The notes under the pieces are model-generated. The model ran no database searches and was not told the origin of the DNA. It worked only from the letters and a program-made list of their open reading frames with translations. Positions 8,581-31,247 of a DNA stretch of 32,154 nucleotides are shown in pieces. Position numbers and translations under genes: made by a program. Position 1 is the first letter of the stretch, and each line of letters starts with the position of its first letter. The stretch comes from Clostridiales bacterium (GTDB lineage: Bacteria; Bacillota; Clostridia; Lachnospirales; Lachnospiraceae): positions 1 through 32,154 of the forward strand of contig JAJPYU010000235.1 of assembly GCA_021204765.1 (NCBI GenBank). The letters are read 5' to 3'.

Positions 8581-8605
8581 AAGGATTTTGGATTGGAGGT
8601 GTGTT

Positions 8606-10267
8606 TTGCAGGCGGACAATAAAAATTTAAAGATAATCCCTTTGGGTGGACTGGAATCCATAGGGATGAATATTACTGCCTTCGAGTACGATGACAGTAT
8701 TATTGTGGTAGACTGTGGTCTGGCGTTCCCCGAGGACGACATGTACGGCATAGATCTCTGTGTGCCGGTGATCACTTATTTACAAGATAATGCAGATAAG
8801 CTGAAGGCTTTTTTTATCACCCACGGACACGAGGATCACATCGGGGCTTTGCCGTATGTATTTAAGGAAATAATTGCTCCTGTCTATGCCACCCGCCTTA
8901 CCATGGGACTGATCGAACACAAGCTGGATGAGCATGAGATGCTGGATGTGGTAAAGCGCAAGGTAGTCAGCTACGGACAGCATATTAATGCCGGAAATTT
9001 CGGTGTGGAGTTCATCAGGACGAACCACAGCATACAGGATGCGGCGGCTCTGGCCATACACACACCGGTGGGCATAATAGTCCACACGGGGGATTTCAAG
9101 GTGGATTACACCCCGGTCTATGGAGACGCCATAGACCTGCAGCGTTTCGGTGAGCTTGGTAAGAAGGGAGTCCTTGCACTGATGTGCGACAGTACCAACG
9201 CTGAGCGGGCCGGTTTTACCATGACGGAGCGGACGGTAGGGAAGATCTTTGCAAATATTTTCTCCGAACATACCCATCAGAGGATCATTATCGCCACCTT
9301 TGCCTCAAATGTGGACAGGGTGCAGCAGATCATAGACACGGCGTATAAATTCGGGCGGAAGGTGGTTGTGGAAGGCCGCAGCATGGTGACTGTCATTGAG
9401 ATCGCCTCTGAGCTGGGATATCTCAATATTCCTCCGGACACACTCATTGAAGTCGATTATATGAAAAATTATCCGGATGAGAGGATGGTACTCATCACCA
9501 CCGGCAGCCAGGGTGAGCCTCTGGCGGCATTGTCACGGATGGCCAACGGAACCCACAGGAAAGTGAAGATCACGCCCAATGACCTCATCGTCTTCAGTTC
9601 GAATCCCATACCCGGAAATGAGAAGGCAGTATCGAAGATCATAAATGAGCTTTACCAGATGAGTGCTGAGGTCATTTTCCAGGACACTCACGTATCAGGC
9701 CATGCCTGCCAGGAGGAGCTTAAGCTTATCTACTCCCTTTTGCAGCCGAAATACACTATTCCCATCCACGGTGAGTTCCGCCACAGGAAGGCCCAGGCCG
9801 GTCTGGCGAAGGAGCTTGGCTGGGACAGTGAGCATATACTTATGCTGTCCTCGGGAGATGTGCTGGAGATGGACGGAGAGAGTGCGGAGATTACCGGAGA
9901 GGTGCCGGCGGGAACAGTCTTTGTTGACGGCCTCGGCATCGGTGATGTGGGAAATATCGTCATGAGAGACAGACAGCATCTGGCGGAGGACGGCATCATT
10001 ATTGTGGTGCTGGCCCTGGATGCGGAAAACGGCGAGCTTTTGGCGGGACCGGATATAGTCAGCCGCGGCTTTGTATATGTGAAGGAATCTGAGAGCCTCA
10101 TTGACGAGGCCCAGGAAGTGGTGAATGCGGCGGTATGCCGCATGATAGATCAGGGTATCACAGACTGGGGCAGGATCAAGTCTGAGATAAAGGATGACCT
10201 GGGAGAATACGTGTGGAGGACAACTAAGCGGAGGCCCATGCTGATGCCGATCATACAGGAAGTGTAA
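8606..10267 (+). CDS. rnj: Ribonuclease J (metallo-beta-lactamase/beta-CASP)
   Basis: KIIPLGGLESIGMNITAFEYDD, HGHEDHIGALPY, HTGDFKVDYTP, TTGSQGEPLAALSRMA, PIHGEFRHRKAQA. Probable TTG start at 8606 after gattGGAGGTgtgtt. Confidence 0.92.
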   Translation: MQADNKNLKIIPLGGLESIGMNITAFEYDDSIIVVDCGLAFPEDDMYGIDLCVPVITYLQDNADKLKAFFITHGHEDHIGALPYVFKEIIAPVYATRLTMGLIEHKLDEHEMLDVVKRKVVSYGQHINAGNFGVEFIRTNHSIQDAAALAIHTPVGIIVHTGDFKVDYTPVYGDAIDLQRFGELGKKGVLALMCDSTNAERAGFTMTERTVGKIFANIFSEHTHQRIIIATFASNVDRVQQIIDTAYKFGRKVVVEGRSMVTVIEIASELGYLNIPPDTLIEVDYMKNYPDERMVLITTGSQGEPLAALSRMANGTHRKVKITPNDLIVFSSNPIPGNEKAVSKIINELYQMSAEVIFQDTHVSGHACQEELKLIYSLLQPKYTIPIHGEFRHRKAQAGLAKELGWDSEHILMLSSGDVLEMDGESAEITGEVPAGTVFVDGLGIGDVGNIVMRDRQHLAEDGIIIVVLALDAENGELLAGPDIVSRGFVYVKESESLIDEAQEVVNAAVCRMIDQGITDWGRIKSEIKDDLGEYVWRTTKRRPMLMPIIQEV

Positions 10268-10280
10268 CACAAGGGTACAG

Positions 10281-10319
10281 AAGTCAGACAATAGATGCTG
10301 GCATCTGATTGGCTGACTT
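10281..10319 (+). repeat. Nested hairpin after RNase J
   Basis: AAGTCAG (10281-10287) / CTGACTT (10313-10319) enclosing AGATGC-tg-GCATCT. Confidence 0.6.
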
Positions 10320-10325
10320 GGGGAT

Positions 10326-10536
10326 CCGCAAAAACATGAGTAAGAAGCCATTTTTCGAAGAAAAATGGGCGGATTACGATGCTACGAACACTTAGCAAGC
10401 TTAAGCGAGCTTACACATTGAACACTTAGCGACTGCGAAGCAGGAGCTTAGTGAGAAAGCGTGCAGAGCAGTGTGAGTGTATGCATAGCAATGTTTTCAG
10501 GATTGCGGGAACTCGAAGAGTGGAGCAATCCGTGTG
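10326..10536 (+). repeat. Dispersed structured repeat, copy A
   Basis: Alignable end to end with 16289-16497. Core 10376-10485 matches 16337-16446 with one mismatch. Contains three hairpins with GAA loops. Confidence 0.93.
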
Positions 10537-10561
10537 TTACAGAAGAATAGGAGGGGATAAA

Positions 10562-14451: not shown

Positions 14452-14645
14452 TTCAAAATTCCTTTACGACTTTACGATTTTGTAAAAACATTTTATAATG
14501 GGTTAAAAGATGATTGTCGCCATGCGGCAATCAGATAAATTTACTCTAACCTATCAGAGGCTAAAAATCAAGATATAGTGCTGCGTCATGATAATGTAAG
14601 CATGAGTTTTTGTTACCGTGTGAAAAGTAACGAGTTTTTTCAGGC

Positions 14646-14674
14646 CTGCACCGGGCACTCCGCTGCCGGTGCAG
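14646..14674. repeat. Hairpin repeat X (upstream of aroC)
   Basis: CTGCACCGG-GCACTCCGCTG-CCGGTGCAG. Same loop and left flank (TTTTCAGGC) as 16020-16048. Confidence 0.88.
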
Positions 14675-14713
14675 AAAACAGATAAATCAAGCTTAAGCAG
14701 GGAGGAATGTGAT

Positions 14714-15817
14714 ATGGCCGGTTCAACATACGGAGATATTTTTAAAATAACTACCTGGGGAGAATCCCACGGTAAGGCGGTCGGCGTGGTGGTGGACGGC
14801 TGCCCTGCGGGACTCACGCTCTGCGAAGAGGATATACAGAAGTTTCTGGACAGAAGGAGACCCGGCCGGTCTGTTTACGCCACTTCCCGCAGGGAGAGCG
14901 ACATTGTGGAAATCCTTTCCGGTGTCTTCGAGGGAAAGACCACGGGCTCTCCCATTTCCCTGTTAGTGAGAAATACCGACCATCATTCCGCTGATTACAG
15001 TGATATAGCGGATAAATACCGCCCGGGGCACGCTGATTACACTTTCGATGCCAAGTATGGATTCAGGGATTACCGCGGAGGCGGACGTTCATCCGGCAGG
15101 GAGACCATAGGACGTGTGGCTGCCGGGGCCATTGCAGTCAGATTATTAAATGAGCTAGGGATCTCCCTGCTTGCCTACGTGAAATCCATAGGGCAGATAC
15201 ATGCCGACATGGAAAAGTTTGACCCTGGGGAGATTGGCAGGAATCCTTTATGTATGCCGGATGCACTGGCAGCCGCCAGGGCCGAAGCCTGTCTTGGTGC
15301 CTGCATACAGAATAAAGATTCCATGGGAGGCGTGATAGAGTGCGTTATCAGCGGCCTGCCCGCCGGGATAGGCGAGCCGGTCTTTGATAAGCTGGACGCC
15401 AGGCTTGCGAGTGCAGTCATGTCCATTGGGGCTGTGAAAGGATTTGAGACAGGTGACGGTTTTGCAGCGGCGGCCATGCATGGCTCTGAAAATAATGACC
15501 CTTTCATTACAGACTATGAAGGCCATATCATAAAGCAGACTAATCACTCAGGAGGTACCCTGGGCGGTATCAGCGATGGCGGAGAGCTAATATTCCGAGC
15601 CGCCTTAAAGCCCACTCCCTCAATAGCACAACCCCAGCAGACTGTGACATCATCCGGAGAACCGACGATTATAGAGATAAAGGGACGTCATGATCCGGTC
15701 ATTGCGCCCCGCGCCGTTGTGGTTGTCGAATCCATGGCTGCGCTGACCATAGCGGATCTGATGCTGGAAAACATGGGTTCGAGGCTGGAGTATGTAAAGA
15801 AAATATATAATAAGTAA
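14714..15817 (+). CDS. aroC: Chorismate synthase
   Basis: MAGSTYGDIFKITTWGESHGKAVGVVVDGCPAGL, RRRPGRS, YRGGGRSSGRETIGRVAAGA, NHSGGTLGGISDG. Start ATG 14714 with ggagg RBS. Confidence 0.96.
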   Translation: MAGSTYGDIFKITTWGESHGKAVGVVVDGCPAGLTLCEEDIQKFLDRRRPGRSVYATSRRESDIVEILSGVFEGKTTGSPISLLVRNTDHHSADYSDIADKYRPGHADYTFDAKYGFRDYRGGGRSSGRETIGRVAAGAIAVRLLNELGISLLAYVKSIGQIHADMEKFDPGEIGRNPLCMPDALAAARAEACLGACIQNKDSMGGVIECVISGLPAGIGEPVFDKLDARLASAVMSIGAVKGFETGDGFAAAAMHGSENNDPFITDYEGHIIKQTNHSGGTLGGISDGGELIFRAALKPTPSIAQPQQTVTSSGEPTIIEIKGRHDPVIAPRAVVVVESMAALTIADLMLENMGSRLEYVKKIYNK

Positions 15818-15984: not shown

Positions 15985-16019
15985 CGTCATGGTATAGGTT
16001 GATCGGTTACTTTTCAGGC

Positions 16020-16048
16020 CCGCGCCAGGCACTCCGCTGCTGGCGCGG
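16020..16048. repeat. Hairpin repeat Y (downstream of aroC)
   Basis: CCGCGCCAG-GCACTCCGCTG-CTGGCGCGG. Compensatory changes relative to 14646-14674. Confidence 0.88.
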
Positions 16049-16072
16049 TGAGAACGAGTAAATTATGCCAAA

Positions 16073-16116
16073 GCAGCACCCGCCTCGCCGGAGGCGACTT
16101 TAAATGCGGGTGCTGC
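16073..16116. repeat. Hairpin with 11-bp perfect stem
   Basis: GCAGCACCCGC (16073-16083) / GCGGGTGCTGC (16106-16116). Confidence 0.85.
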
Positions 16117-16117
16117 A

Positions 16118-16158
16118 GTTGCATTTCAGGCGTCACTTGGTGACGTCTGAAATGCAAC
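16118..16158. repeat. 19-bp stem, 3-nt loop hairpin
   Basis: GTTGCATTTCAGGCGTCAC (16118-16136) - TTG - GTGACGTCTGAAATGCAAC (16140-16158), one G-T wobble. Confidence 0.9.
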
Positions 16159-16288
16159 ATTGATCCTCACCGCAGGGATATGCCGGTTAAGTATTCCTTG
16201 ATTTATACCCACAAAAATGGTAGGATATAACACCAGGGGACAATAGCCGTGAAAAAGACGCCTGAATCCGATTTCATGGATATTGGAA

Positions 16289-16497
16289 CCGCTAAATATG
16301 AGTGAGAAGCCATTTTTTCAAAAAAATAAGCGGATCACGATGCTACGAACACTTAGCAAGCGTAAGCGAGCTTACACATTGAACACTTAGCGACTGCGAA
16401 GCAGGAGCTTAGTGAGAAAGCGTGCAGAGCAGTGTGAGTGTATGCACAGCTATATTTTCAGGATTGTGAGAGCACGGAGTGCGGAGCAATCCGTGTG
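16289..16497 (+). repeat. Dispersed structured repeat, copy B
   Basis: Second copy of 10326-10536. Terminal hairpin 16461-16492 conserved by compensatory substitution. Confidence 0.93.
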
Positions 16498-16529
16498 ATC
16501 ATGTATATTTTGATAATGGGAAGAATATC

Positions 16530-18152
16530 ATGAAGAGAAAGAAATTATTTTTTGGAACCCTTGCAGCTCTTATTATACTGGCATGTACCGTGGTGACAGC
16601 CTTTGCTTCTGACGGCGGAGATTACACCCCCACCATGTATGCCACATTCTGGGCTCTTGTGCCTCCCATCGTGGCCATAGTCCTGGCTCTTATCACCAAG
16701 GAAGTCTACAGTTCCCTATTTATAGGGATAGTCATCGGCGGCATTTTCTATGCAGGTCCCCATTTTTCAACTATCATCCAGCACATATTCCGCACCGGGC
16801 TGGTGGGAGCAGTGGCGGACGCCGACAATGTGGAGATCCTGCTCTTCGTGGAGCTCTTAGGGATTATGGTCTGCCTCATGACAAAGGCCGGCGGTTCCGT
16901 GGCCTTCGGAAAATGGGCCGGGGAGCATATAAAGAGCCGTGTCGGAGCCCAGCTGGTCACCATACTCTTAGGCCTTCTGATCTTCGTGGATGACGGCTTT
17001 AACTGCCTGACTGTGGGCACGGTCATGAGGCCGGTCACCGACGAGCATAAGATTTCCCGGGCGAAGCTGGCATACATCATAGACTCCACCGCAGCCCCCA
17101 TCTGCATCATCGCCCCCATCTCATCCTGGGCTGCCGCAGTCACCGGCTTCGTGGAGGGGGAAAACGGTTTTGCATTATTCATCAAGGCCATACCCTACAA
17201 TTATTACGCATTGTTTACCATAGTCATGCTCTTCGCCCTGACACTTTTCAAGATGGATTTCGGCCCCATGAGGACCCATGAGAGAAACGCCTTTGAGAAG
17301 GGCGACCTTTTCACTACGCCTGACCGTCCCTACGGCGACGATTCCGACGAGGAGGACCACGCGAACGGCGGCGTCATCGACCTGGTATTTCCTGTCATAG
17401 CCCTCATCGCCTGCTGCATCATCGGCATCATTTATACCGGTGGATTCTTCTCAGGTGTGGGCTTCATCACAGCTTTCTCGGAGAGCGAGGCGGCTCTGGG
17501 CCTTATGATAGGGAGTTTTTTCGGAATGCTCATCACCATCATATTCTATGCGGTCAGGAAGACCATGAAGATTGGCGATTCCATCAAGTGCATCCCCGAG
17601 GGTGCCAAGACCATGATCCCGCCTATGATCATCCTGATATTGGCCTGGACCCTCAAAGCCATGACCGTAAGCCTGGGAGCTTCCGAGTATGTGGCAGGGG
17701 TCGTGGACGCGGCCAAAGGCGGGCTGTTCTACTTCCTGCCGGCTATCATCTTTGTGGTGGCGGTATTCCTCTCATTCTCCACAGGCACATCCTGGGGGAC
17801 TTTCGGAATTCTCATTCCTATCGTCGTGGCAGTGTTTGCCGGGAAAGATGAGACCATGCTGGTCCTCTCCATCTCAGCCTGCATGGCCGGAGCCGTCTGC
17901 GGCGATCACTGTTCGCCTATTTCGGATACGACCATCATGTCCTCGGCGGGGGCCCGGTGCAGCCACGTGAACCATGTCTCGACCCAGCTGCCCTACGCCA
18001 TTACAGTGGCCTGTGTCAGCTTTGTCACCTATATTCTTGCGGGATTCATAAGGAGGGCGGTCATCTGCCTGCCCATAGGTGTCGTGCTGATGGTGGCGGT
18101 GCTCTTCGTGATAAAGAAGATAACGGGGAGGAAGCAGGCGGTGGCAGGCTGA
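16530..18152 (+). CDS. Na+/H+ antiporter NhaC family protein
   Basis: Multi-TM protein; TKEVYSSLFIGIVIGGIFYAG, FVDDGFNCLTVGTVMRPVTDEHKISRAKLAYIIDSTAAPICIIAPISSWAA, FSTGTSWGTFGILIPIV, GDHCSPISDTTIMSSAGARCSHVNHVSTQLPY. Confidence 0.9.
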   Translation: MKRKKLFFGTLAALIILACTVVTAFASDGGDYTPTMYATFWALVPPIVAIVLALITKEVYSSLFIGIVIGGIFYAGPHFSTIIQHIFRTGLVGAVADADNVEILLFVELLGIMVCLMTKAGGSVAFGKWAGEHIKSRVGAQLVTILLGLLIFVDDGFNCLTVGTVMRPVTDEHKISRAKLAYIIDSTAAPICIIAPISSWAAAVTGFVEGENGFALFIKAIPYNYYALFTIVMLFALTLFKMDFGPMRTHERNAFEKGDLFTTPDRPYGDDSDEEDHANGGVIDLVFPVIALIACCIIGIIYTGGFFSGVGFITAFSESEAALGLMIGSFFGMLITIIFYAVRKTMKIGDSIKCIPEGAKTMIPPMIILILAWTLKAMTVSLGASEYVAGVVDAAKGGLFYFLPAIIFVVAVFLSFSTGTSWGTFGILIPIVVAVFAGKDETMLVLSISACMAGAVCGDHCSPISDTTIMSSAGARCSHVNHVSTQLPYAITVACVSFVTYILAGFIRRAVICLPIGVVLMVAVLFVIKKITGRKQAVAG

Positions 18153-29870: not shown

Positions 29871-31247
29871 ATGGCCAGAAATGCCAAAAAACAACCTGCA
29901 AACGACAGCAATGAGCTTTTAGAGGCTCTGACTCTTCTTGAAAAGGAGAAAAATATCAGCCGTGATGTGATCATCGGCGCAATCGAAGCTTCTCTTATTT
30001 CTGCCTGCCGAAGCTATTTCGGAAGCAGCGACAACGCTAAAGTGGAGATTAATCCGGAGACCGGAGCTTTTCATGTGTATCTTGAGAAAACTGTGGTGGA
30101 AAAGGCGGATGAGCCCGGCTGCCAGATCAGCCTGGCAGAGGCGAAGATGCATGATGGCTCTCTGGAGCCAGGAGATATTTACCGCGAAGAGGTTAATTCC
30201 AGGGAGTTCTCCCGTATTGTCGCGTCAAATGCCAAGAATATCATCCTCCAGAAGATCCGTGAGGAAGAACGCAATGTTGTTTACCGGAAATATTTTGACA
30301 TGGCCAGGACCGTTGTCACCGGCGTGGTGCAGCGCTATGTGGGTGATAATGTCAGCATTAATCTGGGCAAGGCAGATGCCCTGCTCACCGCAAGCGAGAT
30401 GATAAAGGACGAGAAGTTTGAGCCTACCCAGAGAGTAAAGGTATATATACTGGATGTGAAATCCACCAACAAGGGGCCGAAGATCCTTGTTTCCCGTACT
30501 CATCCTGAGCTGGTCAGGAAGCTTTTTGAGGAGGAGGTCGCCGAGGTCAGGGATGGTGTTGTGGAGATAAAGAGCATAGCCCGGGAGGCCGGCAGCCGTA
30601 CCAAGATGGCAGTGTATTCCAATGACCCGGACGTGGATCCTGTTGGAGCCTGTGTTGGACTTAACGGTTCCAGGGTCAATGCTGTTGTCAACATTTTAAA
30701 CGGTGAGAAGATCGACATCATCAACTGGGATGACAGTGCTGCCCTGCTTATACAGAATGCGCTTAGCCCCGCAAAGGTTATTTCTGTTATCGCTGATCCC
30801 GACGAGAAGACTGCAAAGGTAATTGTTCCAGACTATCAGCTCTCCCTTGCTATCGGAAAGGAGGGCCAGAATGCCCGCCTGGCTGCAAGGCTTACCGGAT
30901 ACAAGATCGATATCAAAAGTGAGACTCAGGCACAGGAGGCCGGCGATGTATTCGACTATGAGGGCGAGTATGGGGATGATTACGATGATGACGGGTACTA
31001 CGATGATGACGGGTACTATGATGATGACTACGACGGTGAGTATGCTGACGACGGCGAATACGATGACGATAGTGAATATGCTGACGATGACTATTACGAT
31101 GACGATGAGTATTATGATGACGACTACGATGACGAGTATACAGATGAAGGATATTCTGATGAAGGCTATGCCGATGATGGGTATGCCGATGAGGATTACT
31201 CAGATGAGGAGTATGCAGACGATGGTCCGGAGGATTCCGGAAAGTAA
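29871..31247 (+). CDS. nusA: Transcription termination/antitermination factor NusA with Asp/Tyr-rich C-terminal tail
   Basis: S1/KH domains: VEIKSIAREAGSRTKMAVYSNDPDVDPVGACVGLNGSRVNAVVNILNGEKIDIINW, LAIGKEGQNARLAARLTGYKIDIKS. Tail of about 100 aa of D/Y/E/G. Confidence 0.95.
   Translation: MARNAKKQPANDSNELLEALTLLEKEKNISRDVIIGAIEASLISACRSYFGSSDNAKVEINPETGAFHVYLEKTVVEKADEPGCQISLAEAKMHDGSLEPGDIYREEVNSREFSRIVASNAKNIILQKIREEERNVVYRKYFDMARTVVTGVVQRYVGDNVSINLGKADALLTASEMIKDEKFEPTQRVKVYILDVKSTNKGPKILVSRTHPELVRKLFEEEVAEVRDGVVEIKSIAREAGSRTKMAVYSNDPDVDPVGACVGLNGSRVNAVVNILNGEKIDIINWDDSAALLIQNALSPAKVISVIADPDEKTAKVIVPDYQLSLAIGKEGQNARLAARLTGYKIDIKSETQAQEAGDVFDYEGEYGDDYDDDGYYDDDGYYDDDYDGEYADDGEYDDDSEYADDDYYDDDEYYDDDYDDEYTDEGYSDEGYADDGYADEDYSDEEYADDGPEDSGK

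Follow-up and report, generated by a model that had tools for sequence, protein, structure and literature searches.

Probable nested mobile hairpins rather than a conserved leader upstream of an NhaC-type antiporter gene in a Lachnospiraceae genome

A structured repeat lies just upstream of the gene for an NhaC-type Na+/H+ antiporter in a 1.96-Mb Lachnospiraceae MAG, a draft that is 92% complete. The window, that is, the whole stretch of DNA that was analysed, has 32,154 nucleotides (contig JAJPYU010000235.1, assembly GCA_021204765.1). A first-pass annotation described the repeat as the second copy (copy B) of an element, at 16289-16497, in the same orientation as copy A and 33 nt 5' of the ATG at 16530, and the copy is present as claimed. 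Is it a leader of the antiporter gene, a gene for an RNA, or something else? It appears that copy B is a mobile element in three layers, a Clostridiales-1 MITE with a nested hairpin module, M, and a second module, N, nested in M. The probability of this reading is put at about 0.82. The features are the following:

8588-10267, forward strand: RNase J gene (PF22505, PF17770), whose stop codon falls in copy A, within the 5' strand of P1.
10261-10541, forward strand: copy A, a fuller Clostridiales-1 element between the RNase J gene and a YlbF-family gene, with M+N at 10380-10490 (cmscan, 72.2 bits).
14669-15817, forward strand: chorismate synthase gene (PF01264), 5' of copy B.
16228-16501, forward strand, ends approximate: copy B, an aged Clostridiales-1 (RF01699) host element (cmscan; 5' part set by alignment with the intact copy of genome G005).
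16230-16233, forward strand: 5' strand of P1, ACAC, with its partner GTGT at 16493-16496; the outer pairs have decayed in copy B (sequence, alignment).
16247-16279, forward strand: P2 arm, CCGTGAAA (16247-16254) with TTTCATGG (16272-16279); the conserved GCTTGC tip has decayed in copy B (sequence, DNA fold, alignment).
16294-16340, forward strand: P3 arm of copy B (sequence, inner-pair variants across copies), with AAATAT (16294-16299), GA, GTGA (16302-16305), the tip hairpin (16312-16327), TCAC (16335-16338) and GA (16339-16340).
16341-16451, forward strand: nested insert M+N, 111 nt, directly 3' of GA in the P3 tandem G.A joint (empty site in M-free host copies, pattern census).
16375-16431, forward strand: module N, 57 nt, within M after GAGCTTA (short against complete M copies).
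16452-16457, forward strand: lower 3' strand of P3 in copy B, ATATTT.
16461-16492, forward strand: P4 hairpin, GGATTGTGAGAGCACGGAGTGCGGAGCAATCC (helices 4 and 5 of the covariation alignment, RNA fold).
16530-18152, forward strand: NhaC-type Na+/H+ antiporter gene (PF03553, E 5e-53), 3' of copy B.

Copies A and B match without gaps between 10352-10536 and 16313-16497 (185 nt, 90% identity, BLAST E 7e-77). The middle was described as almost invariant, and the 111-nt core is indeed 97% identical between the two copies, with 81% for the left 60 nt and 76% for the right 60 nt. The "similar distance" to the start codon holds only approximately, at 33 nt for copy B and 26 nt for copy A (ATG 10562). 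The hairpins quoted for the two copies exist, and in copy B ATTTTTT-CA-AAAAAAT occupies 16312-16327. They had been taken for the 5' end of the element and actually cap P3, an internal arm with a variable tip. The element begins not at 16289 but about 60 nt further 5', at about 16228, where P1 and P2 are found (Rfam alignment of copy A, alignment of copy B with the G005 copy). Copy B keeps P3, P4 and part of P2, and its P1 is mostly decayed (sequence, fold, alignment). As RNA, 16222-16510 folds more stably than 200 of 200 shuffles (z -3.3), and the DNA fold of the same segment beats all shuffles but one (z -3.8). For copy A, the RNA fold reaches z -5.6 against shuffles. Both copies belong to a subfamily that starts with TAACAC.

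Copy A is a member of Clostridiales-1, with an Rfam match at 10265-10539 of 72.2 bits, above the curated gathering score of 48 bits. Copy B is matched by RF01699 at 16332-16501 with 39 bits (cmscan, E 5e-6), under that score, which fits its 111-nt insert and its decayed P1 and P2. It was assigned to the family through homology to copy A and to intact copies. There are many more copies than the two first recorded. The genome holds about 52 host-family matches and 26 matches of the core module. Of the 52, 28 are over the cut-off, and 14 control genomes gave no match. Host sequence makes up about 0.5% of the genome. Compared by RNase J, the genome comes closest, among named relatives, to Clostridiales/Lachnospiraceae MAGs. 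Clostridiales-1 is present in 33 of 61 genomes (this one and 60 relatives), mostly within the family, and its count per genome reaches 38 under the stricter filters of that search. The describing paper considers the motif likely to be an RNA, assigns it no role and rates it as unlikely to be cis-regulatory (Weinberg et al., 2010; PMC2864571). Neither later work on Clostridiales-1 nor a description of it as a MITE was found in the literature searched. The elements are like RF01699 in their four-helix fold, conserved joints and taxonomic range. The Rfam consensus is without the nested inserts that elements in this genome carry.

The fold was explored through 44 diverse copies of the family. Across 30 pairs of P1, the P2 tip, P3 and P4, 94% of cells are paired, and both partners vary in 27 of the 30 pairs. 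Covariation scores 0.478, compared with 0.164 for shuffled and at most 0.09 for slid alignments; the model was written from one of the aligned sequences, which biases the slid control in its favour but not the shuffles. The most telling pair lies inside the tandem G.A of P3 and occurs in all four Watson-Crick forms. The inner pair of P3 is GTGA/TCAC in copy B and GTAA/TTAC in copy A, and elsewhere it is GCAA/TTGC, GGAA/TTCC or GAAA/TTTC. The view of a structured, dispersed repeat whose stems are kept by compensatory change is thus borne out, with a covariation that fits selection on RNA and selection on single-stranded DNA alike. The constrained parts lie outside M+N. They comprise the ATGAG...CGAAT joint, which surrounds the tandem G.A, and the GATTGC...GCAATC helix.

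What Rfam lists as an sRNA is the inside of a MITE, about 184-215 bp overall, in relatives with young bursts. The ends can be read from near-identical copies in G021 and G009 (left TGATACCAGGGTCAAAAG, right CTTTTGACCCCAACATC). The terminal inverted repeats (TIRs) are imperfect and 17-18 bp long. They are TGATACCAGGGTCAAAAG/TGATGTTGGGGTCAAAAG in G021, G009 and G027, and similar ends occur in three copies of this genome (L031, L032 and L033). Full TIRs are not visible in copies A and B. Exact target-site duplications of at least 6 bp (6-7 bp) flank 20 of 30 family copies, compared with 2% for mismatched flank pairings; examples are ATAGTA, ATTTGA, ATGAAA and TTATGA. The flanking duplications that the first-pass annotation proposed to look for therefore exist in the family. 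At the flanks of copy A, GAAG stands on either side of the P1 stem and may be a short duplication. No clear duplication was seen at the flanks of copy B. For this reason and because of the decayed P1, the boundaries of copy B are approximate and its MITE nature is taken from the family. We infer that it arrived by the same transposition.

An autonomous partner was sought. A search for the MITE ends in six draft genomes turned up no transposase between them, and no MITE ends were found beside DDE_Tnp_1 genes, the one transposase family covered in this way, in four genomes. A pair of ends 1.27 kb apart (L197) was considered as an autonomous element. It encloses phosphoglycerate-mutase-like and aminotransferase-like ORFs (translations read by eye), and the pairing was put down to chance. 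There is also a minimal element of 69 bp (L232, G000:C55, 2007-2076) that consists of nothing but Clostridiales-1 TIRs and a P2 hairpin, with flanks ATTGTA/ATTATA.

Rfam types Clostridiales-1 as "Gene; sRNA", and the strong covariation and conserved joints would suit an independent small-RNA gene that was duplicated by chance. The TIRs and target-site duplications are not expected of such a gene, and the same holds for a copy number that reaches about 50 per genome among unrelated genes. Many elements (among L031-L196) start a few bases from the end of the preceding coding sequence, and often the element's own TGA or TAA provides its stop codon. An independent small-RNA gene is thus highly improbable. 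The MITE nature of the family accounts for how many copies there are and how scattered their contexts are; Clostridiales-1 is both mobile and structurally constrained. A discrete transcript would still be compatible with the MITE reading, if the MITE carries an RNA.

The position of copy B can also suggest a cis-regulatory leader, a riboswitch or attenuator, of the NhaC antiporter gene, with copy A as a related one. Both copies are structured and lie on the same strand as the gene that follows, 26-33 nt from the start codon. Of 69 copies, 53 lie between co-directional neighbours, and 41 of these share the strand of the two genes while 12 run against it (p 8e-5), a bias that rests on simple ORF calls and includes burst copies that are not independent. 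The bias hints at selection in transcripts; antisense insertions in operons may have been selected against. The downstream genes, however, are unrelated, there are about 50 copies per genome, and the scan listed neither a terminator-like site in the copy B element nor a promoter-like site just upstream. A weak extended -10-like stretch just 5' of copy B was considered and set aside, as it was not listed by the promoter scan. The motif had, as noted, already been marked as unlikely to be cis-regulatory.

The orthologous sites also speak against a leader. The gap between RNase J and ylbF, where copy A lies, is free of any element in 18 congeners and in a further 80 genomes (98 in total, and the two sets may share species). 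Loose signature matches in those 80 genomes fall in the following gene and not in the gap. For copy B, conservation as a regulator upstream of NhaC is not supported. No intact element was found at the orthologous site in the congeners read (G005, G019, G003 and G012), and the closest NhaC orthologue (G005, 76%) has no element upstream. There is a possible remnant in G012. Few orthologues exist, and empty sites alone are compatible with loss as well as gain of copy B. A regulatory leader is highly improbable on this evidence, and nested mobile hairpins are found here in place of a conserved leader. If it is co-transcribed with nhaC, copy B would sit in the nhaC leader.

Other repeats are present in the window. 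A composite hairpin repeat lies just 5' of copy B at 16008-16172, with outer CGGTGAG/CTCACCG and at least two inner hairpins. Its TTTTCAGGCC...CACTCCGCTGC part is repeated at 14637-14672, before the chorismate synthase gene, with 86% identity. Acidic low-complexity repeats with units of about 18 nt are found at the end of an ORF (30958-31206).

The invariant core of copies A and B had been read as a sign of sequence-specific constraint. It (16341-16451) is instead a separate nested module, which is absent from most host copies and is also found in other hosts. Most host copies run from GCGGATTGCGA straight into ATGTTTTGAGG, whereas copies A and B have 111 nt between them. High identity of the core is expected of a recent insertion, so no constraint is needed to account for it. 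The middle probably appears invariant as a young insert in an old host.

The short form of M is about 55 nt long, TGCTACGAACACTTAG...GTATGCGTTAGCT, and gave 26 pattern matches in this genome and 0 for the reversed pattern. Within Clostridiales-1, M is found in P3 after GCGGATTNCGA and in P4 after GATTGCGRGA; it is also found in other repeats. At least 12 of the 20 M copies that have both flanks present lie inside Clostridiales-1. When the flanks of M were joined, 13 of the 20 gave a match to M-free copies that spans the junction, and 12 of these were strong (E 1e-15 or better). The clearest proof of nesting comes from L055 and L031, which are practically identical apart from two inserts, each some 55 nt long; one of these is M. 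The two bases before M are GA in 18 of the 20 copies. No target duplication was seen at M insertions when empty sites were compared. The mean identity among M copies is 88.5%, and it is 92% for M+N. The arms of the M hairpin covary, with both pairs Watson-Crick in 28 of 33 hairpins (shuffle mean 13).

N is a relative of M, 57 nt long, inserted in M after GAGCTTA. It is absent from 15 short M copies and present in six complete ones. One more round of nesting is found in L093, a copy at a contig end. The inner hairpin of M was considered as a further insertion as well. Only L115 is without it, and a deletion between CTTA repeats explains this equally. Two more hairpin inserts were seen in Clostridiales-1, one set in L055, L057, L059, L007 and L009 and the other in L048, L052, L058 and L229. 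They share GGTCTACGCTCCGCT..CGGTC at one end and differ in their hairpins, so M is not the sole nested module.

Among canonical copies in relatives, none of those read carries M. The 61 genomes had suggested that M is species-specific. This was given up when a sample of 397 genomes of the family gave matches in 10 further genomes, most of the matches in G422 (7) and G415 (3). One match (L335) looks like chance in coding sequence. M-like modules show a patchy distribution across the rest of the family. In G422, from a distant genus, M lies inside a different, unrelated repeat of about 215 bp with its own inverted ends, GTTACTGTTCA/TGAACAGTAAC. This repeat in turn lies within Clostridiales-1 sequence in L342 and L348, and in L348 it has GTCAAAAT on both sides. 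Recombination between host copies cannot account for the several positions and hosts of M, though it may add to the number of its copies. Hairpins with the pattern CACTTA-NN-GA...GA-NN-TTAGTG and compensated NN are scattered in other genomes of the family (L331-L341, L349-L351), in some cases as tandem copies, and at one of these loci there is also an S4 ribosomal leader.

That M+N is an intrinsic, constrained domain lost from other copies is hardly credible, for the high identity among M copies, the compensated arms and the presence of M in an unrelated repeat of a distant genus are outweighed by its absence from all canonical copies read in relatives, its several positions and hosts, and the exact empty sites in near-identical copies.

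Under the three-layer reading, copy B would have been built up in steps. An old Clostridiales-1 MITE, a non-autonomous DNA transposon with TIRs, a target duplication of about 6 bp and a fixed branched interior fold, would have been moved in trans by a transposase, as the TIRs and duplications indicate. The 55-nt hairpin M would then have entered a helix joint, 3' of a GA step and without target duplication, and N, a related hairpin of 57 nt, would have entered M. As each insert is a hairpin complete in itself and sits at a joint, the host fold can be lengthened instead of disrupted. The fold is presumably maintained because mobility depends on it, or because it makes the element harmless when it is transcribed. 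M would be moved by an enzyme or process that acts on structured single-stranded nucleic acid. This draft genome, 92% complete, gave no match for a Y1 (HUH) transposase (PF01797) or a reverse transcriptase (PF00078). It is conceivable, if doubtful, that M represents a class of mobile hairpins of 35-60 nt that recognise folded joints, 3' of a GA step, in structured mobile elements. Such hairpins would leave no target duplication and use neither of these enzymes, and their hosts would grow like Russian dolls with the fold kept. M would then be a parasite of structured MITEs with a novel insertion chemistry.

Known systems offer comparisons. IS200/IS605 elements are like M in inserting 3' of a fixed short target (GA in 18 of 20 for M) without duplication, a resemblance in working and not in membership. 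REPINs depend on a RAYT (Y1-type) transposase. They are like M as very short mobile hairpins in many copies with no coding capacity (PMC3116915), but differ in that this genome gave no match for a Y1 gene. In the BOX repeats of Streptococcus pneumoniae, boxB folds by itself, and its loss or multiplication leaves the rest largely undisturbed; repeats inserted in one another have been treated (Croucher et al., 2011; PMC3049150). In architecture, which is all that is compared here, BOX is like Clostridiales-1 with M and N, a modular, structured, MITE-like repeat with an optional inner module. It differs in that boxB copies follow one another in tandem. M and N lie nested within arms, and M also enters unrelated hosts; no relation in sequence to BOX is expected. 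Expansion segments of clostridial 5S rRNA, Lachnospiraceae included, are modules at joints of a structured RNA whose core is expected to be unbroken (PMC7812874). They are likened to M by architecture alone, and the RNA that they extend is ribosomal.

The repeat 5' of the NhaC gene is best read as a structured, BOX-like MITE of an Rfam family that carries nested hairpin modules. Clostridiales-1, which Rfam and Weinberg et al. (2010; PMC2864571) present as a probable RNA of unknown role, and which is curated as a small-RNA gene, is the interior of a transposing MITE in several Lachnospiraceae. Individual copies should thus not be taken as regulators of the genes beside them. The nested modules provide clean pairs of before and after for the study of how folded nucleic acids gain arms, which is of relevance to BOX-like elements and to the expansion segments of structured RNAs. 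They also pose the question of which agent places hairpins of 55 nt 3' of GA at helix joints.
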